Origin: Streptomyces sp. NBC_01314
Lineage (GTDB): Bacteria > Actinomycetota > Actinomycetes > Streptomycetales > Streptomycetaceae
DNA length: 64,000 nt
Direction: 5' to 3'
Assembly (NCBI RefSeq): GCF_041435215.1
Contig: NZ_CP108394.1
Location: 4,464,001 to 4,528,000, forward strand
A model generated the notes under the pieces. That model did not search any database. It was not told the DNA's origin and saw nothing but the letters and a program-made list of their open reading frames with translations. Made by a program: the position numbers and the translations under genes. Below are positions 6,828 through 58,464 of the stretch, one piece after another; position 1 is the first letter of the stretch; every line of letters starts with the position of its first letter.

Positions 6828-7895
6828 CTAGAGTGGCGCGGCCGGCGGCGCCCCCGTACTGCTCCGCACCACCAGGCTCGTCGCCAGCTCCACCCTGGTC
6901 GCCGCCGAGGAACCCTCCTGGCGTCCGAGGTCGAGCACCAGCCGGGCCGCCGCCTCGGCCATCTCCATCAGCGGCTGCCGTACGGTCGTCAGCGGCGGCC
7001 CCACCCAGCGGGCCACCGGCAGGTCGTCGAAGCCGACCACGCTCAGGTCCTCCGGGATGCGCAGGCCCAGTTCGCGGGCGGCCTCGTAGAGGCCGAGCGC
7101 CTGGAGGTCGTTGCCGGCGAAGACGGCCGTGGGGCGGTCGGGGCGGCGCAGCAGCTCCAGGCCCAGCCGGTAGCCGGTCTCGTGGTGGAAGTCGCCCGCC
7201 CTGAGCAGGCCCGGGTCGACCGGCAGCCCGGCGGTCTCCAGCGCGGCCCGGTAGCCGTCGACCCGGGCGCGGCTGCACATCATCCGCGAGGGCCCGCTGA
7301 TGGCGCCGATGCGCCGGTGGCCGAGTTCGATCAGATGGCGGGTGGCGGCCAGGCCGCCCTGCCAGTTGGTGGCACCGATCGAGGGCACGTCGTCGCCGGG
7401 GTCGCCGGCCGGGTCCATCACCACGAACGGGATGGACCTGCTGGTCAGCAACGCGCGCTGGGACTCGTCGAGCCCGGACAGGACGAGGACGACACCGTGC
7501 GGGCGGCGCGCGGCGACCTGGTCGGCCCAGGTGCGGCCGGGGGTGAGCCGGCCCGCGCTCTCGGAGAGGACGACGCTCAGGCCCTCCTGCCGCGCGGTGT
7601 TCTCGACGCCCCGGATGACCTCCATCGCCCAGGCGCTCTCCAGCTCGTGGAAGACCAGGTCGATGAGGGGGGAGCGGGTCGCCTCGGCGCGCCGGCGGCG
7701 GTAGCCGTACGCGCGCAGCAGATCCTCGACGCGGGTGCGGGTCGCGGGTGCGACGTCCGCACGGCCGTTGAGCACCTTCGAAACAGTCGGAGCCGAGACG
7801 CCGGCCTGACGGGCGATCTCGGCGAGCGTCGCGGTCTGCGTGGACTGCGGCGTACGCGCTCTTGTCTGGGTTTCCTCTGGCTTCGCGGGCTTCAT
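6828..7895 (-). CDS. LacI-family transcriptional regulator of the xylan locus
   Basis: A 355-residue repressor. The helix-turn-helix is [20 protein letters not shown] (about residues 22-42), followed by the hinge and a periplasmic-binding-like effector domain ([12 protein letters not shown] near the end is typical of LacI proteins). It sits between the xylanase and the importer operon and is divergent from the latter. By analogy to BxlR of streptomycetes it should repress xylo-oligosaccharide genes and be released by a small sugar. ATG 7895 is chosen because it precedes the HTH by the usual distance; the frame is open to 8018, but that part overlaps the importer promoter. No strong RBS is visible, so the start has some doubt. 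Confidence 0.85.
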
Positions 7896-7923
7896 GAGCG
7901 GGATCGTATCCCTGCGCGACCTC

Positions 7924-7952
7924 TTGACGAACCCTTTCGACGGCCATACGTT
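7924..7952 (+). promoter_or_regulatory. Promoter of the sugar-importer operon, TTGACG-N17-TACGTT
   Basis: A near-consensus -35 TTGACG (7924-7929) and -10 TACGTT (7947-7952) are separated by 17 bases. The box is 65 bases upstream of the ATG of the solute-binding-protein gene. CGAA and TTCG half-sites overlap the spacer and continue downstream. Confidence 0.65.
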
Positions 7953-8002
7953 CCCGGAACATTCGAAGTGCCATCCGAAACATTCGTACGTCCGAACATT
8001 CG
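7928..8002 (+). promoter_or_regulatory. Cluster of CGAA/TTCG operator half-sites
   Basis: Between the -35 box and the RBS are CGAA-N4-TTCG (7928-7939), TTCGAA (7962-7967), CGAA-ACA-TTCG (7976-7986) and CGAA-CA-TTCG (7993-8002). The heptamer ACATTCG occurs three times, starting at 7959, 7980 and 7996. This is consistent with several binding sites for the adjacent LacI regulator, controlling both divergent genes. Confidence 0.55.
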
Positions 8003-8016
8003 TGAAGGGTGCTGTC

Positions 8017-9381
8017 ATGGAGTCGAGTAGAGGTCAGGTCACCGGCGGCGGCGCGGGCGGCCGGCCGTTCAGCAGGCGCTGGTTCCTCGGCGCCGGTTCC
8101 GCCTCGTTGCTCACCGCGGGACTCGGCACCGGCCTCACCGCCTGCGGCTCCGGCGGCGGAGCGGGCGGCGGGGACGGCAAGACGCTCACCGCGTTCGTTT
8201 ACGGCGACGACGCGGTGAAGGTCCAGCAGGCGGGCGTCGACCGGTTCAACAAGTCGGCCGCGGCGAAGAAGGCCGGCGGCACCATCAAGCTGCAGAAGGT
8301 CCCCGGCTCCGACTACTCCCCCAAGCTCCGCACGGCGATGGGCTCCCCCAGCGCCCCGGACGTCTTCTTCAACTGGGGCGGCGGCTCGATCAAGCCGTAC
8401 GAGGAGGCGGGCAAGCTCGTCGACCTCACCGACATCATCGAGGGCGACCCGGTCCTGAAGGACGGCTTCCTGCCCTCGGTCCTCGCCGCCGGCGATCTCA
8501 AGAGCCGCCACTACGGCATCCCGATGCGCGGCATGCAGCCGGTGATCCTCTTCTACAACAAGGCCGTCTTCGCCGAGCACAAGCTGCAACCGCCCACCAC
8601 CTGGGACCAGCTGCTCGACAACAACGTCAAGCTCAAGAAGGCGAAGATCACCCCCTTCGCCCTCGGCGGCTCCGACGTCTGGCCCGAGCTGATGTGGCTG
8701 GAGTACCTGGTCGACCGTATCGGCGGCCCCGAGGTCTTCAAGCGCATCCAGGACGGCGACGCCGAGGGCTGGGGCGACCCCACGGTCCTCAAGGCCGCCG
8801 AGCTGGTCAAGGAACTCATCGACGACGGCGCCTTCGGCTCCAAGTTCACCTCGGTGTCGTACGTCAACGGCGGCGCCCCCGCGGTCTTCGCGCGCGGCAA
8901 GGCCGCCATGCACCTGATGGGCTCCTGGGAGTACTCCACACAGCTCGGGAAATTCCCGGACTTCGCCAAGGCGGACCTGGGCTGGGCCCCCTTCCCGACC
9001 GTCGAGGGCGGCACGGGCGACGTTCGCAACGTCGTCGGCAACCCCACCAACTACTGGTCCGTCAACGCCCGCACGAAGAACAAGGACCTGGCGGTCGGCT
9101 TCCTGAAGGACTGCGCCTCCCAGGCGTACGCGCAGGCCCTGGTCGACAACGGCGACGTCCCGACCACCTCGAACGCGGCCGACCTCCTCACGTCCGCGCC
9201 CAACCCCGAGTACGCGAAGTTCCAGTACGACATGGTGCAGAAGGCCCCCGCGTTCACGCTCTCCTGGGACCAGGCGCTCGGCGACGGCCTCGGCACCAAG
9301 ATGCACACGGAGATAGGCAAGCTGTTCGCGGGCCAGTCCTCGCCGAGCGACTTCGTGACGGCGTGCAAGGGCCTGAAATGA
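8017..9381 (+). CDS. bxlE: ABC transporter sugar-binding lipoprotein, BxlE-like
   Basis: A 454-residue extracellular solute-binding protein of the family 1 (maltose/oligosaccharide) type. The N-terminus has a twin-arginine motif (SRRWFLG, R20-R21) followed by a lipobox (LTAC, Cys43), so export by Tat and lipid anchoring are likely. ATG 8017 has GAAGGG upstream; the frame extends to 7840 but overlaps the promoter. It is the first gene of an operon with two permeases and a GH3 glycosidase. No ATPase gene is present, which is normal: streptomycetes share one MsiK ATPase. The context (xylanase, GH3) points to xylobiose or xylo-oligosaccharides as substrate; this is inferred. Confidence 0.88.
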
Positions 9382-10283
9382 CCGTCACGGTCGAGAAGAC
9401 CCCGACGGCGCGGAAGGGGCCGGCGCACCACGCGAGCCGCACCGGCCGCCCGCACGCCGCCTGGGCCCTCCCCGGCGTCCTCTTCTTCACCTTCTTCGCG
9501 GTCGTCCCGATGGCCCTGGCCCTCTATCTCTCCTTCACCAGCTGGGACGGCCTCGGCGACCCGCGGCCGGTGGGCCTCGACAACTGGCGCAAGCTCCTCG
9601 ACGACCCCCGGATGGCGCAGTCCCTGTGGCTGACCGTCGTCCTGACGGTCGCCAGCTGGGTCTTCCAGACGGTCGTCGCCCTGCTGCTCGGCGTCTGGGC
9701 GGCGGGCCGCCAGCGCAACCGCGCGATCCTCTCCGCGGTCTTCTTCGTCCCGTTCCTGCTCTCCTCCACCGCCATCGCGATCCTCTTCTACGCCCTCCTC
9801 GACCCGAACTTCGGCATCATCCAGAAGGACACCCTGGGCTCGCAGAGCGGCGCGTTCCTCGCGATCGTCTTCGTCGGCGGCTGGCAGTTCATCCCCTTCC
9901 ACACCCTGATCTACCAGGGCGGGGCCCGCCAGATCCCCGACGTCCTCTACCAGGCCGCCGCCATCGACGGTGCCGGCCGCTACCGCCAGTTCTTCTCGAT
10001 CACGCTCCCGCAGCTGCGCCACACGATCACCACGTCCACGGTCCTGATGGTCGTCGGCTCCCTGACGTACTTCGAGACGGTCCTGATCCTCACCAAGGGC
10101 GGCCCCGGCACGGACACCGCGATCCTGCCCTACCTGATGTACGAGGCGGGCTTCAAGACGTACGACTTCGGCTACGCGAGCGCCATCGCGTCCTTCCTGG
10201 TCATCGCCGCGACGGGCCTCTCGCTCATCCTGGTCCGGCTGACGGGATTCGGCGCCATGCGCAGCACCCGCGAAGGGATGTGA
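9378..10283 (+). CDS. bxlF: ABC sugar transporter permease 1, BxlF-like
   Basis: A 301-residue inner-membrane permease of the MalF type with about six transmembrane segments, the first at [20 protein letters not shown]. The cytoplasmic EAA-like loop is at [15 protein letters not shown], the contact site for the shared ATPase. Its ATG overlaps the TGA of the binding-protein gene by four bases (ATGA), so translation is probably coupled. Confidence 0.88.
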
Positions 10284-49954: not shown

Positions 49955-50295
49955 GGCTACTCAGTAGTCCTTTGTCTGGTTTAACGCTCTGGAACCCGAT
50001 GTTCCCTCACCCGCTCCTCCGACCCACGCGGTCGGGTGTGTCGCGCTTCCACTGACACAGATGCCCCTTGTTCGAGCATCCCTTGTCGGGAAACACGGCC
50101 CTTCCGGAACCGCAGGCCGGGAGCAGAAGCCCACCGGGTGCCTGGCCGGCGCCGCACTGACACTTCCCGAAAGATTCCCGTACGTCCGCTCCAGCGCTGC
50201 CGTAAGGCAGTTGGGGCGACGAGTACTGTGGGACTCGCTTCCGGTCCTCCCGGCGGGAGGCGCGCAGCATCAACACTCGACCGAGCAACCCCGCT

Positions 50296-50905: not shown

Positions 50906-52648
50906 ATGCGCACGCACTATCCGCGGACCAGGCATCTGCCCTGGTCCCCCGGCGCGACCGCCGATGATCTCCGGGTCACCGACCTGTCCGGCCTGCGCGG
51001 ACGCGAGGTCGTGGTGACCGAGAAGCTCGACGGCGAGAACACCACGCTGTACGCCGACGGCCTGCACGCCCGCTCACTCGACTCCGCGCACCACCCCTCC
51101 CGCACCTGGGTCAAGGCGCTCCAGGCCCGTATCGGCCACGCCGTTCCGGAGGGATGGCGGGTGTGCGGGGAGAACATGTTCGCCCGCCATTCCCTCCCGT
51201 ACGACGACCTGGACAGTTGGTTCTACGGGTTCTCGGTGTGGGACGGGGACGGGCGCTGTCTGGACTGGGACCGGTCGGTGGCATTTCTGCGCGGACTCGG
51301 GGTCCCCGTGCCGCGCGTGCTGTGGCGGGGCGTGTTCGACGAGCGGGCGCTGCGCGCGCTGCGGCTGGATCCCGGACGGCAGGAGGGGTACGTCGTCCGG
51401 GTCGTGGACGGCTTCGGCGCGGAGGAGTTCGGCGCCCGCGTCGCGAAGTGGGTGCGGTCCGGGCACGTACGGACGGACACGCACTGGATGCACGCGGCCG
51501 TCGTCGAGAACGGGCTGGGCGCGCGGGCCCCGCTGTGGGCGGTGCGATCGGGGGCGCCCGTGGACGCCGACGCGCTGGCGCGGGCCGTCGGGCTGCCGGG
51601 CGAGGGGGACCGGGAGGCCGTCGCCCGCTTCGACGCGGCGGGGCGGACCGGTGACGACCGGCTCGTCGGCGTGCTGGCCGCGCTGTTGCACGGCGACGAG
51701 GACGAACCCGAGGACGGACCCGACGACAAGCAGGACCGCAACCGGGGCACCAAGCGGGGCGGTTGGCGGGCCCGGATCGCGGCGCGGCTGGCCGGGGCCG
51801 TGGGCATGCCGCTCGCGCGGCGGGTCGCCGATGTCGTGGGGCTGCACCCCGCGCTGCACCGGCCGTATCCGGACGAGGACCGCCGGAACGGCCTGGCCCG
51901 GCTGTCCCTCGCCGCAGACCTCGGTCTGCTGCACGCGGTCGCCCGGGCCACGGCGGCGACGGACGCGGCGTCCGAGCAGGTGGAGTGGTCGGCGCTGCAC
52001 GCCGAGGAGGTGCCGGGCTTGGATGAGGGTGCCCTGGGGGAGGCGTTCACCGGGCTGCCGGCCGAGGCGGCCGTCCGGTGCCGGGCAGAGGCGCGGGAGG
52101 CGTACGCGCGGGGGCGCATAGGCGGGGGCGGCTCCGGCGCTGCCGCCGAGGCCGTCGCCGCGACGTGGCGGTGGCGGTCGGGGGCCTTCCCGAGGCTGAT
52201 CCAGCTGGTGGGTCCGGCGGGCAGCGGCAAGAGCACCTTCGCGCGGGGGCTCACGGGCGTGGACAGGTATGTCTCGCTGGACGAGCTGCGCGAGGCGCGC
52301 GGCGCACGCGCCGACCAGCGCGCCAACCCGGACGTACTGCGCGCCGGGCTCGACCGGCTGGACGGGGCGCTGGCCGCCGGTGGGACGGTGGTGTGGGACG
52401 CCACCTCGCTCAACCATCAGCAGCGCTCGCTGGTGCACGCGGTCGCCCGCCGCCGCAACGCCCTGCTCACCCACGCCGTGGTCCTGGTCGACGAGGACGA
52501 GCTGATACGACGCAACACCCGCCGCGAACACCCGGTACCGCCCGGGGTGCTCACCCACCAGCTGCGCCGCTTCGCCCCGCCGTATCCGGGCGACGCGCAC
52601 CGCACCTGGTACATCGGGGCGAGCGGGACCGTAGAGGAAGAGGTCTGA
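50906..52648 (+). CDS. RNA ligase fused to polynucleotide-kinase-like P-loop domain
   Basis: A 580-residue two-domain protein. The N-terminal nucleotidyltransferase domain (about 1-200) has ligase motif I EKLDGEN (Lys40 would carry the AMP), motif III-like WFYGFSVWD (105-113), motif IV EGYVVRV (160-166) and motif V RVAKWVR (Lys181). The middle (about 220-420) is an alpha-helical part with an Asp/Glu-rich linker at 263-275. The C-terminal P-loop kinase domain has GPAGSGKST (436-444), then VVWDATSLNHQQR and RRNTRREHPVP, typical of the AAA_33/PNK-type kinase. ATG 50906 has GGGGGAA upstream. The pair with the next gene (six-base gap) suggests an RNA-end healing and sealing system. The exact substrate is unknown. 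Confidence 0.85.
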   Translation: MRTHYPRTRHLPWSPGATADDLRVTDLSGLRGREVVVTEKLDGENTTLYADGLHARSLDSAHHPSRTWVKALQARIGHAVPEGWRVCGENMFARHSLPYDDLDSWFYGFSVWDGDGRCLDWDRSVAFLRGLGVPVPRVLWRGVFDERALRALRLDPGRQEGYVVRVVDGFGAEEFGARVAKWVRSGHVRTDTHWMHAAVVENGLGARAPLWAVRSGAPVDADALARAVGLPGEGDREAVARFDAAGRTGDDRLVGVLAALLHGDEDEPEDGPDDKQDRNRGTKRGGWRARIAARLAGAVGMPLARRVADVVGLHPALHRPYPDEDRRNGLARLSLAADLGLLHAVARATAATDAASEQVEWSALHAEEVPGLDEGALGEAFTGLPAEAAVRCRAEAREAYARGRIGGGGSGAAAEAVAATWRWRSGAFPRLIQLVGPAGSGKSTFARGLTGVDRYVSLDELREARGARADQRANPDVLRAGLDRLDGALAAGGTVVWDATSLNHQQRSLVHAVARRRNALLTHAVVLVDEDELIRRNTRREHPVPPGVLTHQLRRFAPPYPGDAHRTWYIGASGTVEEEV

Positions 52649-52654
52649 GGAACC

Positions 52655-55441
52655 GTGCGTACGAGCGAGGAGATCTATCACCGGGTGCGCTGGGACGCGC
52701 GCTTCGACCCGGCCCGCTTCGTGCTCGGCGTCCTTCAGCGGAACGCCGAGCCCAAGCGGGTCCCGCTGCCCGCCTTCGTGCCCGGCGGCGAGATCCCGTG
52801 GCACCGGGTGCTGTTCTTCGAGGCCGACGGGGAGATGGTCTGGGACCGGGCCACGGGGGCGGACCGGATCGACGCGACGGAGGCGGGGCGCGTACGGGAG
52901 GCCCGGCTGCTCCGGGCGCCGTTCTTCACGGCGCGCACGCCGTACGCGTGGGGCGGGGAGGAGTGGGTGCCCGCGCGCTCCCCGGGAAGTACTGGCTCCG
53001 CAGGCGTACGGGTGCTGACCTGGAACACTCTCTGGGACCGGTACGACGCCGACCTCATCGACAGCGCCGGACGCAGGCCGTTGCTGCTGCGGGCCCTGCG
53101 CGAGGCCGATGTGGACGTGATCGCGTTGCAGGAGGTCGAGGCGGAACTGCTGGCGATGCTGCTGCGCGAACCGTGGGTGCGGGCGGACTGGACGCTGGGC
53201 ACGGACCCGCACGGACGGGACGTGGACGCGTGCGGTCTGCTGCTCCTGAGCCGGTTGCCGGTCCGCGAGGCCGCGTTCCACTCGCTGGGCCCGCACAAGG
53301 CGGTGACCGCGGTGGTGGTGGAGACCGGCGGGCACCCCCTCGTGGTCGCGGCGACGCATCTGAGCAGTGACCACTCCGCCGACGGCGCCGGTCGCCGCGC
53401 CGCCGAACTGGCCCGGATCGCCGAGGGTTTGGCGGCCCTGGACGCCGATCTCGTCCTGCTGGGCGACTTCAACGACGGCGGCGACACACCCCAGGTGACG
53501 CTCGGCATGCGGGACGCGTGGAGCGAGACGCACGGCCCGGACGACAGGACGCCGACCTTCGACCCCGGCACCAACCCGCTGGCGGCGGTGTCGTCCCTGA
53601 CGGGGCGGGTGTCACGGCTGGACCGGGTGCTGGTGCGCGGACGGAGTCTGGGGGTGCGGTCGGCCGAGCTGTACGGGGACGCGCCCTCGCCGGACGGGCT
53701 GTACATCTCGGACCACTACGGCGTACGGGCGGAGGTGGGCCCTGACGCCCCGGACACCGCCTTCGCCTGCCTCGACATCCGGCCGACCGCCCGTACGGCC
53801 CTGGCGTGGCTCCCTCCCGAGGAGTTGTGGCCGCCGCTGCAGGACATCCGCCGGCAGCACGACCCGCAGATCCACCGCTGGCCCCCGCATGTGAACCTGC
53901 TCTTCGGCTTCGTACCGGAACACGCCTTCGAGCAGGCGGCCTCGGTGCTCGCGACGGCCACCACGGCTCCGTTCGACGCCCGGCTGGAGGGCGTGCACTG
54001 GTTCGGTCACCGGGACGACGCGACCGTGTGGCTCGACCCGGCGGCGGACGGCGAGGAGCCCTGGGCCGAGCTGCACAGCACCCTCGTACGCCACTTCCCG
54101 CGCTGCCGCGGCCGTCACGAGGGCTTCACCCCGCATCTGAGCCTGGGCCGCGCCACCGACCCGAACAGCCTGGCCGCCGCCTGCGCGGCCCGGCTCGCCC
54201 CCATGCGGGCCGAGGTCGGCGAGCTGGCTCTGTTGTCGCGACGGGGGGACGAGCCGATGCGGGTGCGGGGGACGGTGAGTCTGGGGACGGGAGAGGTGCG
54301 CTGGCGGGAGGAGGCCGCGCGGGATGGCGGCGAGGCCGCCTCGTCCGGCACGGGCGCCGTGGCCGACCGGGTCACCCGCCTCATCGCGGCCGCGTTCCCG
54401 GCCGGCGTCGTACACGTCGTCGGCTCCCGGCGCATGGGCTGCGCGCTGCCGGGCGCCGACCTGGACCTGGTGGCGGCACTGCCCGGGACGGTCGAACTGT
54501 CCATCGTCCGGGCGAAGTTGAGCGAAGCGACGCGCGGGGCCGGTGATGTGCGCGAGGTGGTCGGAGCACGCGTACCCGGTCTGCGGCTGCGGCTCGACGG
54601 CCTGGACGTGGACCTGGCCGTCGTGGCCACCGGATCGCTGGACCCCTCGGAGGCGGTGGACCGGCGGGCCGAGTTGGGCGAAGCGGCGGCGGTCGCGCTC
54701 AGCGCGGTGAGTGACGCCGACGCGGTACTCGCCTCGGCGGGCACCCACGGGCCGGCCTTCGCCCGGCTGGCCAGTCAGGTCAAGGCATGGGCGAAGGCGC
54801 GGGGCCTGGACTCGGCACCGTTCGGCGGCCTGCCGGGCCTGGCCTGGTCCGTCCTGGCGGCCCGCACGGCGAGCGAGGCGGGCGGCCTTCCGTCGGCCGA
54901 TCTCCTACGGCACTTCTTCGCGACGTGGGCGGCGTGGGACTGGCGCGAGCCGGTGGGAGACCTCGCAGGCACCTCCGGCGGGCTCCCCCTCACCATCGCG
55001 ACCCCCTCGGCCCCGGTCCGCCCCTGCACGGACCAGGTCACGACGGGCATGCGCGACCTCATCACCCAAGAGCTGTTCCGGGCCTGGGAACTGCTGGAGG
55101 AGGGCACCGCGTTCTCGGGCCTCCTCACCCCTCCCCCGCTCCACCGCCGCCACGCCGCCTGGGCGATCGTGACGGTGGACGGGGGCGCGGACGGCGTCGC
55201 GGACGAGGGCCGGGTACGGGGCAGGATGCGGGCGCTGATCACCGACCTCGCCGAGGCGGCTCCCGACTGCCACGCCTGGCCCCGCCCCTTCACTACGGCC
55301 CCCGCCCGCTACGCCATCGGCCTGGGCCGGACCCCACCGACCGCGACCGATGTGACCGCCGTGGCTGAACGTCGGCTGCGCGGTCTGGCGGGGGTCACGC
55401 TCATGAGGGCCGAGGGCGGAGAGGTGCCGACCCTGTCCTGA
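52655..55441 (+). CDS. Multidomain RNA end-processing protein (MJ1316/DUF504-like, EEP, 2H phosphoesterase, nucleotidyltransferase)
   Basis: A 928-residue protein from GTG 52655. Domains in order: (1) about 1-90, MJ1316/DUF504-like (YHRVRWDARFDPARFVLGV, IPWHRVLFFEADGEMVWDR). (2) about 117-362, endonuclease/exonuclease/phosphatase fold: LTWNTLWDR, IALQEVEAE, ATHLSSDH, LLGDFND (268-274), SDHYG (352-356). (3) about 366-552, 2H phosphoesterase with HVN (412-414) and HLS (494-496). (4) about 565-928, poly(A)-polymerase-like nucleotidyltransferase with GSRRMG (590-595), D602/D604 and D651/D653, plus a helical C-terminal part. Such combinations were proposed in RNA repair by comparative genomics. 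It would open cyclic phosphates, trim or modify ends and perhaps add nucleotides for the preceding ligase. Confidence 0.85.
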   Translation: MRTSEEIYHRVRWDARFDPARFVLGVLQRNAEPKRVPLPAFVPGGEIPWHRVLFFEADGEMVWDRATGADRIDATEAGRVREARLLRAPFFTARTPYAWGGEEWVPARSPGSTGSAGVRVLTWNTLWDRYDADLIDSAGRRPLLLRALREADVDVIALQEVEAELLAMLLREPWVRADWTLGTDPHGRDVDACGLLLLSRLPVREAAFHSLGPHKAVTAVVVETGGHPLVVAATHLSSDHSADGAGRRAAELARIAEGLAALDADLVLLGDFNDGGDTPQVTLGMRDAWSETHGPDDRTPTFDPGTNPLAAVSSLTGRVSRLDRVLVRGRSLGVRSAELYGDAPSPDGLYISDHYGVRAEVGPDAPDTAFACLDIRPTARTALAWLPPEELWPPLQDIRRQHDPQIHRWPPHVNLLFGFVPEHAFEQAASVLATATTAPFDARLEGVHWFGHRDDATVWLDPAADGEEPWAELHSTLVRHFPRCRGRHEGFTPHLSLGRATDPNSLAAACAARLAPMRAEVGELALLSRRGDEPMRVRGTVSLGTGEVRWREEAARDGGEAASSGTGAVADRVTRLIAAAFPAGVVHVVGSRRMGCALPGADLDLVAALPGTVELSIVRAKLSEATRGAGDVREVVGARVPGLRLRLDGLDVDLAVVATGSLDPSEAVDRRAELGEAAAVALSAVSDADAVLASAGTHGPAFARLASQVKAWAKARGLDSAPFGGLPGLAWSVLAARTASEAGGLPSADLLRHFFATWAAWDWREPVGDLAGTSGGLPLTIATPSAPVRPCTDQVTTGMRDLITQELFRAWELLEEGTAFSGLLTPPPLHRRHAAWAIVTVDGGADGVADEGRVRGRMRALITDLAEAAPDCHAWPRPFTTAPARYAIGLGRTPPTATDVTAVAERRLRGLAGVTLMRAEGGEVPTLS

Positions 55442-56277: not shown

Positions 56278-56439
56278 TCACACCTCTTCAGTAAAGATGC
56301 CTATCCAGAAGGCGGCAGGCTACCAAGGGTGATCTCACGGCGATTCCGCACGTCAGATCCCCCGGAGCGGGCAAACTGTGCTCCCGGTCAGGGACTCACG
56401 ACAGCAGACGCACGACAGCAACAGGGAGAAGCCCACGCC

Positions 56440-58464
56440 ATGGTGAAGGTGAGGTTGGAGACCAGCCGGGAGCACGTCGCCGAGCTGGCGCGGCTGCGGG
56501 ATCCCGTCGGCGCGGTCGAGGAACTGATCTGGAACAGCGTCGACGCCGACGCCGGGCACGTCGTCGTCACGCTGGAGCGCAACGACCTGGGCGGCGTGGA
56601 CAGGGTTCGCGTCCAGGACGACGGCAGCGGGATGCCTGCCGAGCACTGCGAGGAGTACTTCCGGCCGATCGGTGCCTCCTGGAAGAAGCGTTCGCAGGGA
56701 AGTCCGGTGAAGAAGCGTGCCCTGCACGGGAAGAACGGACGCGGCCGGGTGCGCGCCTTCGCACTCGGCACCCAGGTGCGCTGGACCAGCGTCAGCGACG
56801 CCGTCGGAGGCCGACAGCAGTTGGTGATAGAGGCGGACCGGCGTTCCATGGACGAGTTCGACATCGGCGAACCGGAACCCACGGACGACCCGACCGGCAC
56901 ACTGTTCGAGGCGTTCGGCGGTGACGAGCAACTGAACGTCCTGGCTGACGAGCGCGCCAGGTCATCACTCACCACGGCCTTCGCCACGTACTTGGAGAAA
57001 TACCCGGACGTACGCATCGAGTACGACGGCCATGACCTCGACCCGGCCGCCGAGCAGTCGCACGTGCGCGACTACGTCCTGCCCTCCCCCGCCGACTGGA
57101 GCGGCGACCCGGCCCGACTGAAGGTCGTCGAATGGCGCAGGTCCGTCACCCGCGCGCTCTTCCTGTGCGACGGGGAAGGCATGTCGCGAGCGCAGCTCAA
57201 GCCGGGCATCCAGGCGCCGGGCTTCGAGTTCACGGCGCATCTCAGCTGGTCCGGCTTCGACGATGTCGACTCCGAGGATCTCGCCTTCACCGACTGGGCG
57301 TCGCACGGACCGCTCGCCGAAGTGCTCGCGGCGGCCCGTGACCAGCTCAAGGCCCATTTCCGGGCACGCGTGGACGAACGACGGCGGGAACAGGTCACGG
57401 AATGGCGTCGGGAAGGCATCTACCCGTACGCGGATGACGCCGCGAACGAGAAAGAACGAGCGGAGCGCGAGACCTTCGACGCCGTCGCCACCACCGTCTT
57501 CCGGCATCTGCCGAGGTCTCAGGGCACACGCCGCACCACCTTCGCGCTGCTTCGATCCGTCCTCGCCCACGAGCCCTCGGACGTGCTGCGCATCGCCGAC
57601 GACTTGTTCTCACTCTCCAAGCAGGAACGAGAGGAACTCAACCGGCTTCTGCGGCGCACCACGCTCTCAGCTCTGATCAAGGCTTCCACGGCGGCAGCGA
57701 ACCGCATCGACTTCCTGGCGGCGCTGGAGCACCTCGTCTTCGCACCGGAAGCGAAGCAACGCGTGACCGAGCGGGACGAACTCCACCGGATCCTGGAGGA
57801 TCAGTGCTGGGTGTTCGGCGAAGAGTACGCACTCCATGTCAGCGACCGCAGTCTCAACGTCGTCCTCGCGGAGCACTGCCGGCTCCTCGGCCGTGACAAC
57901 CCCACACCGGAACCGGTCCTGCGTGAGGACGGGCGACGCGGCCGGGTCGATCTGATGCTGTCCCGTGCCGCTCGCCATCGAAAAAGCGAACGGCACCATC
58001 TGGTCGTCGAGTTGAAGCGCCCCAACGTCGTCCTGGGGGTGACGGAGTTCGGCCAGATCAACAGCTACGCGGAGGCGGTGATGTCCGACGACCGCTTCTG
58101 TGAACCGGCGGTGACGTGGGACTTCTGGCTCGTGGGCAACGCCATGGACAGAACGCTTCGGCAGATGGCCCACCAGATGGACCGTGTCCCGGGATGCGCC
58201 GTCTCCAACCCACGCTTCCGGATCATGGTGAAGACCTGGGGCGAGATCATCGAGGACTGCCAGGAACGCCTGCGGTTCCACAGTGCGCAGCTGGAATACC
58301 AGTCCTCCACCGAACACGCGATGGACTACCTGGTCCGCAACCACGGCGACACCGTGGCGGAACTGGTTGCCGACGGGACGATTCCCGCATCCCGCAGGGA
58401 CGGTCAGCCTTCGACCGCGTACGACACGAAGTCCGCCCAGGCGGTCGACGTGAGCGTGAGCTGA
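56440..58464 (+). CDS. GHKL ATPase fused to PD-(D/E)XK nuclease domain; defence candidate
   Basis: A 674-residue protein. The N-terminal GHKL (Hsp90/MutL/MORC-type) ATPase has the N-box EELIWNSVDADA (E28, N32), G1 DDGSGMP (60-66) and G2 GKNGRGRV (97-104). A helical middle follows. The C-terminal region is a restriction-like nuclease: QCWVFGEEYALHVSDRS, then D504 in RVDLML, E524-x-K526 in VVELKRPN, and Q539 in FGQINSYAEAV. This D...ExK layout resembles Shedu/DUF4263-type nucleases. GHKL-REase fusions are known as MORC-related restriction systems in bacteria. ATG 56440 is used with GGGAGAA about 10 bases upstream; the open frame goes to 56329. It is solitary. Its 3' end overlaps the convergent DUF397 gene by 61 bases. 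Confidence 0.8.
   Translation: MVKVRLETSREHVAELARLRDPVGAVEELIWNSVDADAGHVVVTLERNDLGGVDRVRVQDDGSGMPAEHCEEYFRPIGASWKKRSQGSPVKKRALHGKNGRGRVRAFALGTQVRWTSVSDAVGGRQQLVIEADRRSMDEFDIGEPEPTDDPTGTLFEAFGGDEQLNVLADERARSSLTTAFATYLEKYPDVRIEYDGHDLDPAAEQSHVRDYVLPSPADWSGDPARLKVVEWRRSVTRALFLCDGEGMSRAQLKPGIQAPGFEFTAHLSWSGFDDVDSEDLAFTDWASHGPLAEVLAAARDQLKAHFRARVDERRREQVTEWRREGIYPYADDAANEKERAERETFDAVATTVFRHLPRSQGTRRTTFALLRSVLAHEPSDVLRIADDLFSLSKQEREELNRLLRRTTLSALIKASTAAANRIDFLAALEHLVFAPEAKQRVTERDELHRILEDQCWVFGEEYALHVSDRSLNVVLAEHCRLLGRDNPTPEPVLREDGRRGRVDLMLSRAARHRKSERHHLVVELKRPNVVLGVTEFGQINSYAEAVMSDDRFCEPAVTWDFWLVGNAMDRTLRQMAHQMDRVPGCAVSNPRFRIMVKTWGEIIEDCQERLRFHSAQLEYQSSTEHAMDYLVRNHGDTVAELVADGTIPASRRDGQPSTAYDTKSAQAVDVSVS

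Follow-up and report, generated by a model that had tools for sequence, protein, structure and literature searches.

The window analysed here, a stretch of 64,000 nucleotides from Streptomyces sp. NBC_01314 (contig NZ_CP108394.1, positions 4,464,001 to 4,528,000), contains two adjacent genes, denoted ORF1 and ORF2 (for open reading frame; Table 1), which in our judgement rather probably encode a two-protein system for the repair of broken RNA, the breaks most likely being made by metal-independent ribonucleases, whose cleavage products end in a 2',3'-cyclic phosphate and a 5'-OH. Under this model, ORF1 would be a healing enzyme of the HD-Pnk type (Pnk, polynucleotide kinase) joined to a DRB0100-type ligase, with its HD domain decayed, and ORF2 would perform the healing of the 3' end. 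The domains and folds of the two proteins, the conservation of their residues, the close pairing of the genes and the loss of most HD active-site residues were observed directly. An earlier note on this DNA had described the pair as a complete RNA-repair kit; the domains, folds and conserved residues behind that description hold, the catalytic steps and the RNA substrate are proposed below in conditional terms, and the degenerate HD domain had been overlooked.

Results

Both genes lie on the forward strand where the earlier note had placed them, six bases apart, the second encoding 928 amino acids. The ORF1 frame is open upstream from a GTG at 50036, and homologues align from the methionine at 50906. 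The GAGGA at the junction is plausible as a ribosome-binding site and suggests translational coupling of the two genes. Among 8000 candidates scored per protein, 1572 homologues of ORF1 and 1319 of ORF2 were found at E<=0.001, so the frames are not chance. The nearest named homologues of the pair come from S. europaeiscabiei, S. scabiei and S. graminofaciens, and NCBI annotates proteins of the ORF1 type as 'RNA ligase family protein' and those of the ORF2 type as 'poly(A) polymerase' or 'RNA repair domain-containing protein'. The ratio of nonsynonymous to synonymous substitution rates (dN/dS) was 0.10 to 0.41 for all domains in all pairs compared (both genes of the window against those of loci L055 and L077, and ORF2 also against L109); thus, every domain is under purifying selection.

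Table 1. Features of the gene pair, in window coordinates
Feature	Position	Strand	Details
ORF1: RNA ligase - degenerate HD - polynucleotide kinase fusion	50906..52648	+	580 aa, start ATG 50906
Rnl2-type RNA ligase domain, ORF1 residues 1-190	50906..51475	+	PF09414 RNA_ligase E 1.8e-33
Predicted adenylylated lysine K40 of ORF1	51023-51025	+	K in 49/49 rows
All-helical middle region, ORF1 residues 205-420	51518..52165	+	predicted model; HD homology from about residue 237
P-loop polynucleotide kinase domain, ORF1 residues 427-580	52184..52645	+	AAA_33 E 1.3e-20
Candidate ribosome-binding site GAGGA	52647-52651	+	overlaps ORF1 stop codon
Spacer ORF1/ORF2	52649..52654	+	six bases
ORF2: MJ1316 - EEP - 2H - poly(A) polymerase	52655..55441	+	928 aa, start GTG 52655
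MJ1316 (DUF504), ORF2 residues 1-75	52655..52879	+	PF04457 E 4.2e-19, 69.5 bits vs cut-off 26.3
EEP hydrolase, ORF2 residues 116-365	53000..53749	+	EEP E 9.2e-20; closest solved fold TDP2
2H phosphoesterase, ORF2 residues 378-550 (H412, H494)	53786..54304	+	PF13563 E 1.1e-32
Three-domain eukaryote-type poly(A) polymerase, ORF2 residues 557-928	54323..55438	+	PAP_central E 1.1e-7

Domains and catalytic residues

A Pfam search of both proteins, in which all domains reported here scored above the curated cut-off, recovered every domain claimed by the earlier note, namely RNA ligase and kinase in ORF1 and MJ1316, EEP, 2H and a poly(A)-polymerase-like domain in ORF2. The motifs it had listed (EKLDGEN, EGYVVRV, the P-loop, HVN/HLS and GSRRMG...DLD) are all found in the sequence, and the ligase fold that it expected in the first protein is present, matching Naegleria Rnl and T4 Rnl2. 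In alignments of 49 ORF1 rows and 51 ORF2 rows, almost all catalytic positions are invariant. These include K40, E89, E160 and K181 of the ligase and K442, S443, D459 and R462 of the kinase (49/49 each), as well as N124, E160, D271, N273, D353 and H354 of the EEP domain (51/51). The D-x-x-R motif of the kinase (D459, R462) and its lid arginines R536 and R540, also present in all 49 rows, presumably correspond to T4 PNK positions. The exceptions are one row in the nucleotidyltransferase (NTase), whose catalytic aspartates D602, D604 and D653 are present in the other 50, and the 2H domain, where H412 and H494 occur in 47 rows and the remaining four have no such domain. Because EEP is found in all 51 rows and 2H can be lost, EEP may be the core 3'-end enzyme of the putative system.

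The Pfam title of MJ1316 is RNA cyclic group end recognition domain, and binding or reading of 2',3'-cyclic phosphate ends by this domain is described in the available part of PMC6514570. In the available part of a review (PMC13247085), ANGEL2, an EEP enzyme, is reported to convert 2',3'-cyclic phosphate to 2',3'-OH. The polymerase moiety comprises the NTase, central and C-terminal RNA-binding domains, that is, the full architecture of a canonical poly(A) polymerase (PAP).

The rows without 2H represent one loss in one clade (4 rows tested). The ORF2 proteins without 2H (737-763 aa where measured; loci L056, L057, L078, L080 and L151-L158) retain MJ1316, EEP and PAP. A separate short Streptomyces family, about 264-304 aa, consists of MJ1316 and 2H alone, with no EEP or PAP motif (L290-L300, L309, L310, L312 and L398); in three genomes (L294, L297 and L298) it adjoins rplC and the S10 operon, the same neighbourhood as that of the pair in the window. 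Compensation of the 2H loss by such a stand-alone protein was considered and is not relied on: the protein occurs in 5/11 genomes with a 2H-less ORF2 and in 2/39 others (2/41, p 0.003, in an earlier tally), counted after removal of one duplicate genome (G130 = G870) from genome sets that may overlap. The test is unreliable because a loss within a single clade makes the rows non-independent.

A degenerate HD domain in ORF1

Pfam gave no match in the middle region of ORF1, and a structure search of the protein barely covered it. Profile comparison by hhalign, in contrast to an initially favoured view that the region is unrelated to HD, connected it to three Deinococcus HD-Pnk proteins (E 5.7e-7) and to all nine HD-Pnk rows (E 2.5e-7), these E-values being from single comparisons with a probability of 92-93%; against six actinobacterial HD-Pnk proteins, hhalign gave no signal for the region. 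The HD-Pnk of Deinococcus sp. QL22 yields a colinear blastp match from residue 237 to 570, through the kinase, at 31% identity (E 4e-23 overall, with much of it contributed by the kinase). With blastp, the other two Deinococcus proteins match the kinase and, elsewhere, at most short weak pieces.

Histidine and aspartate residues of the HD family bind metal, and in HD-Pnk this domain acts as a phosphoesterase on 3' ends. We compared eight such positions, each present in 9/9 HD-Pnk rows, in a joint alignment. Of the 49 fused ORF1 rows, 0, 1, 47, 5, 1, 0, 31 and 0 retain the residue at these positions in turn; at the first two positions, many of the rows are gapped. Thus, the first histidine and the last aspartate are never kept, and the aspartate of the HD pair is in only five rows. 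This table rules out an intact HD domain in the middle region; as most of the active-site residues are lost, the domain is probably inactive. The decay is nevertheless incomplete, given that the histidine of the HD pair stays in 47/49 rows and one further histidine in 31/49.

Distribution and genomic context

In a sample of 147 genomes from the same order, ORF1 was detected in 34 and MJ1316 in 42, and all 34 genomes with ORF1 have MJ1316. Of the eight with MJ1316 alone, seven encode the short MJ1316-2H protein (two verified by Pfam) and one gives a weak match below the cut-off, without such a motif; a long MJ1316 protein over the cut-off without ORF1 was found in none of the 147. Across a phylum sample, MJ1316 was found in 3/396 genomes. 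The pair proved to be conserved, as the reading in the earlier note requires: ORF2 adjoins ORF1 on the same strand at 38/39 loci, with a spacing of -14 to 7 nucleotides in 37 of the 38 and 199 in one, and in the single exception (G015) it lies on a different contig. These 39 loci represent 32 of the 34 positive genomes of the order (the window and one contig-edge locus being left out) and seven further ones. A scan of named genomes (best 80 of 96 loci) showed ORF1 at 51 of 55 actinobacterial ORF2 loci. In one genome (G052, locus L086), both genes are shortened, to 229 and 411 aa, ORF1 having no middle region and ORF2 being truncated, as joint decay of the two genes would predict.

The S10-operon gene rplC lies inside the retrieved stretch at 22/98 loci, the window included; therefore, one set of Streptomyces has the pair in the str-S10 region and others have it elsewhere. 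Apart from the pair, S10-operon genes are the commonest neighbours, at up to 22 loci, followed by a helix-turn-helix gene at 16 and by fusA and tuf at 15 loci each. No PADLOC model matched ORF1 or ORF2 at E 0.01.

In two phyla outside the actinobacteria, ORF2 occurs together with a ligase and a kinase that are encoded by separate genes. In Chamaesiphon (Cyanobacteriota), Rnl, an HD-Pnk with a detected HD domain and ORF2 are consecutive on one strand, and in four Myxococcota genomes ORF2 is divergent from Rnl followed by Pnk (in one, the contig ends within ORF2). Pfam found no HD domain in the two Myxococcota Pnk proteins scanned. In Actinocorallia, Catellatospora and Nannocystis, ORF1 is not adjacent to ORF2, and Rnl and HD-Pnk are encoded elsewhere in the genome. 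A Polyangia genome with an ORF2 relative has Rnl and no HD-Pnk within the short stretch covered, and in Myxococcus eversor and Streptomyces sp. ISL-100, which have ORF2 without ORF1, the only ligase matches are other, more distant ones. The viral contigs searched for ORF2 gave a single weak EEP match and nothing else.

Several further observations concern relatives and neighbours of the pair. In Actinoplanes italicus (G860; L276 / L286), where ORF2 has no adjoining ORF1, two RNA-ligase-like genes are clustered with a T4-type kinase-like gene. An ORF2 relative on plasmid2 of Calothrix brevissima NIES-22 (6995-9970, L397), one of two solo cyanobacterial copies, is annotated only as RNA 2',3'-cyclic phosphodiesterase, and the plasmid is typed as conjugative. 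At three loci (L102, L104 and L107), an ORF1-like P-loop kinase is fused to what appears by eye to be a luciferase-like monooxygenase domain, in proteins of 479-504 aa as called. In the window, positions 56329-58464 (+) encode a protein of 711 aa in which a GHKL-type ATPase domain (HATPase_c_3) is recognised and in which a VELKRP stretch, judged by eye, resembles that of PD-(D/E)XK nucleases; possibly a defence-type gene, it recurs at one other of 97 loci in the retrieved stretches.

Origin of the ligase

The ligase domain of ORF1 has relatives in phages and on Deinococcus plasmids. Among phages, it matched 246 IMG/VR stretches, of which 80 were analysed, and 32 of 50,697 phage records matched ORF1, many of them from jumbo phages, none of the 50,697 covering 80% of the protein. 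Deinococcus plasmids account for 18 of the 51 plasmid records that match the ligase domain; ORF2 matched eight plasmid records and none from Deinococcus.

In D. radiodurans, a ligase 59% identical to that of ORF1 lies in an operon with PARG and HD-Pnk. We identify these genes as DRB0100-DRB0098 because their order agrees with DRB0098-DRB0099-DRB0100 as given in the available part of PMC11833690 and the cloning primer in the accessible text of PMC1997131 encodes the same first residues. According to the latter text, DRB0100 is adenylylated at K40, and adenylylation is lost in the K40A mutant.

We rely on a second ligase tree, of 67 rows (60 different), comprising 15 ORF1 ligases, 40 of the 80 phage sequences, seven Rnl sequences of HD-Pnk operons, three from Deinococcus and two from Myxococcota; relative to a first tree of 68 rows, it omits the rows from Actinoplanes and Nannocystis and five phage rows on long branches. 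All 15 ligases from ORF1 are monophyletic (100/99) and sister to Deinococcus (72/81, not decisive), and both fall within the phage ligases (97/94, in a set with three phage rows), apart from the Rnl sequences that belong to HD-Pnk operons. The position of the root is uncertain, as it depends on long outgroup branches, about which the tree program gives a warning. A simple derivation of the ligase from phages, as read from the first tree, was therefore abandoned: the second shows a common clade of phage, Deinococcus and ORF1 ligases, with the direction not clear.

Comparison with known systems

Among the closest known systems is the operon of D. radiodurans. The similarity extends to a lysine at position 40 of the ligase, a kinase 42% identical to that of ORF1 and an HD domain homologous to its middle region. 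However, in DRB0098-DRB0099-DRB0100 (HD-Pnk, PARG and ligase), separate genes encode ligase and HD-Pnk, a PARG gene lies between the two, and the HD domain has its residues intact, whereas ORF1 is a fusion with a decayed HD domain and ORF2 is added. The Rnl2-like ligases of jumbo phages, among which the ORF1 ligase is nested in the rooted tree, are 42-56% identical to it over about 200 aa in the matches listed; they differ in standing alone, 75 of 80 being 190-231 aa long. Actinobacterial Rnl + HD-Pnk operons, at which both genes were found by motif at 6/8 loci (L094-L101), share the families of both ligase and kinase (hhalign E 1e-13 for the kinase), but their HD residues are intact, their ligases belong to a different clade, and the retrieved stretches hold no ORF2 match. 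Compared with HD-Pnk / Rnl systems in general, the pair has a ligase with K40 and a P-loop kinase and no intact HD active site.

Fungal Trl1 combines ligase, kinase and phosphodiesterase on 2',3'-cyclic phosphate and 5'-OH ends, according to the available sections of PMC6592678. The same RNA ends would be served by the ligase, kinase and 2H-type activities of the pair; unlike in Trl1, however, the 2H domain is in the second protein, EEP, MJ1316 and PAP are extra, and a degenerate HD domain lies between ligase and kinase. The Trl1 phosphodiesterase is a 2H enzyme.

Burroughs and Aravind in 2016 reportedly proposed RNA-repair proteins containing MJ1316. In common with those proteins, as outlined in PMC6514570, the pair has an MJ1316 end reader fused to RNA-repair domains; fusion or operon structure ties its MJ1316 domain to a ligase and to enzymes that process RNA ends. 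Neither the set of domains nor the proposal of RNA repair is new; literature searches among open-licence papers found no experimental study of this gene pair. To the earlier note and, possibly, to the 2016 proposal, three features are added here: a degenerate HD domain in ORF1, a complete poly(A) polymerase of eukaryotic type in ORF2, and, in two other phyla, ORF2 loci linked to a ligase and a kinase that are not fused.

Discussion

We infer each catalytic step of the model, the order of the steps, the RNA substrate and the replacement of the HD domain by ORF2. The MJ1316 domain of ORF2 would recognise the cyclic-phosphate end, its 2H domain would open the cyclic phosphate, and its EEP domain would strip the remaining phosphate to leave 2',3'-OH, after which the PAP moiety could restore missing 3' nucleotides. 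The ORF1 kinase would then phosphorylate the 5' end, and the ORF1 ligase, adenylylated at K40, would seal the break. The role assigned to EEP draws on the ANGEL2 precedent (PMC13247085, in the part available), and those of the NTase, kinase and 2H enzyme on the scheme proposed for phage systems in the accessible part of PMC7824862.

Several observations weigh against this interpretation. The function of the pair is read from sequence, and no association with defence or toxins is demonstrated. The closest solved fold of the EEP domain is TDP2, a 5'-adduct hydrolase, not ANGEL2; ORF2 has no 2H domain in 11 distinct Streptomyces genomes, only five of which hold the stand-alone MJ1316-2H protein; and the two histidines noted above persist in the HD domain of ORF1. 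The experiments on Deinococcus, as described in the available text of PMC1997131, are also adverse: DRB0100 joined no DNA or RNA tested in vitro, the combination of DRB0100, DRB0098 and DRB0099 gave no DNA ligation, and a 3'-phosphatase activity of DRB0098 was left undecided, as HD-pair mutants did not lower the activity of the preparation. Finally, a Pnk match of at least 87 bits was present in only 4 of 63 MJ1316-bearing Myxococcota genomes (195 searched), which means that ORF2 often functions with no partner of this kind, and the retrieved stretches of the two other cyanobacterial ORF2 copies gave no ligase or kinase match.

This frequent solitude of ORF2, without a close Pnk partner in 59/63 of these Myxococcota genomes and without one nearby in the two cyanobacteria, leaves room for a role in RNA decay or quality control, in which ORF2 would clear cyclic-phosphate ends and tail the fragments for exonucleases, with ORF1 only loosely coupled. 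Healing of the 3' end ahead of tailing is chemically sensible, and the polymerase is a full canonical PAP. We nevertheless regard this explanation as unlikely: in the order sample, every genome with a long MJ1316 protein over the cut-off also has ORF1, ORF2 is linked to ligase and kinase in three phyla, and a ligase would be superfluous for a decay enzyme.

Less plausible still is housekeeping, that is, a role in maturing, splicing or circularising a native RNA, comparable to that of fungal Trl1 on tRNA. Foldseek matched ORF1, weakly, to the ligase-kinase half of Trl1 (9r3w), with a root-mean-square deviation of 21.3 over both domains; the 2H domain equals the Trl1 cyclic phosphodiesterase in role (PMC6592678, in the part available); and one set of Streptomyces has the pair beside ribosomal protein genes. 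However, the pair is patchy, with ORF1 in 34/147 genomes of the order and a decayed remnant in one genome, and a required step would be expected to be more constant. Repair of DNA breaks, with ligase, kinase and TDP2-like EEP cleaning and sealing DNA ends, is similarly improbable, as PF09414 is an RNA-ligase family, MJ1316, 2H and PAP all indicate RNA, and DRB0100 joined no DNA (PMC1997131, accessible text).

Repair of cut RNA thus being our preferred explanation, a bolder scenario can be sketched, which we offer tentatively and think somewhat doubtful. The pair would be a bacterial machine for RNA repair in which domains have been exchanged: a DRB0100-type ligase from the jumbo-phage clade would have become joined to HD-Pnk, the HD domain would then have died, and 3' healing would have passed to a partner whose eukaryote-type PAP refills missing nucleotides ahead of sealing. 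The authors of the DRB0100 work proposed an additional protein, not then named (PMC1997131, in the sections available). That DRB0100-type ligases need a factor of the ORF2 kind is our conjecture, and a partner of this sort might be what they were missing.

If this picture is correct, the pair would provide a self-contained system for testing how cells rebuild cut RNA, including the way in which a bacterium uses a eukaryote-type polymerase to replace lost bases. The pair would also offer a testable answer to the apparent inactivity of DRB0100-type ligases alone and would represent a natural case of a decayed domain whose task moved to a partner gene.
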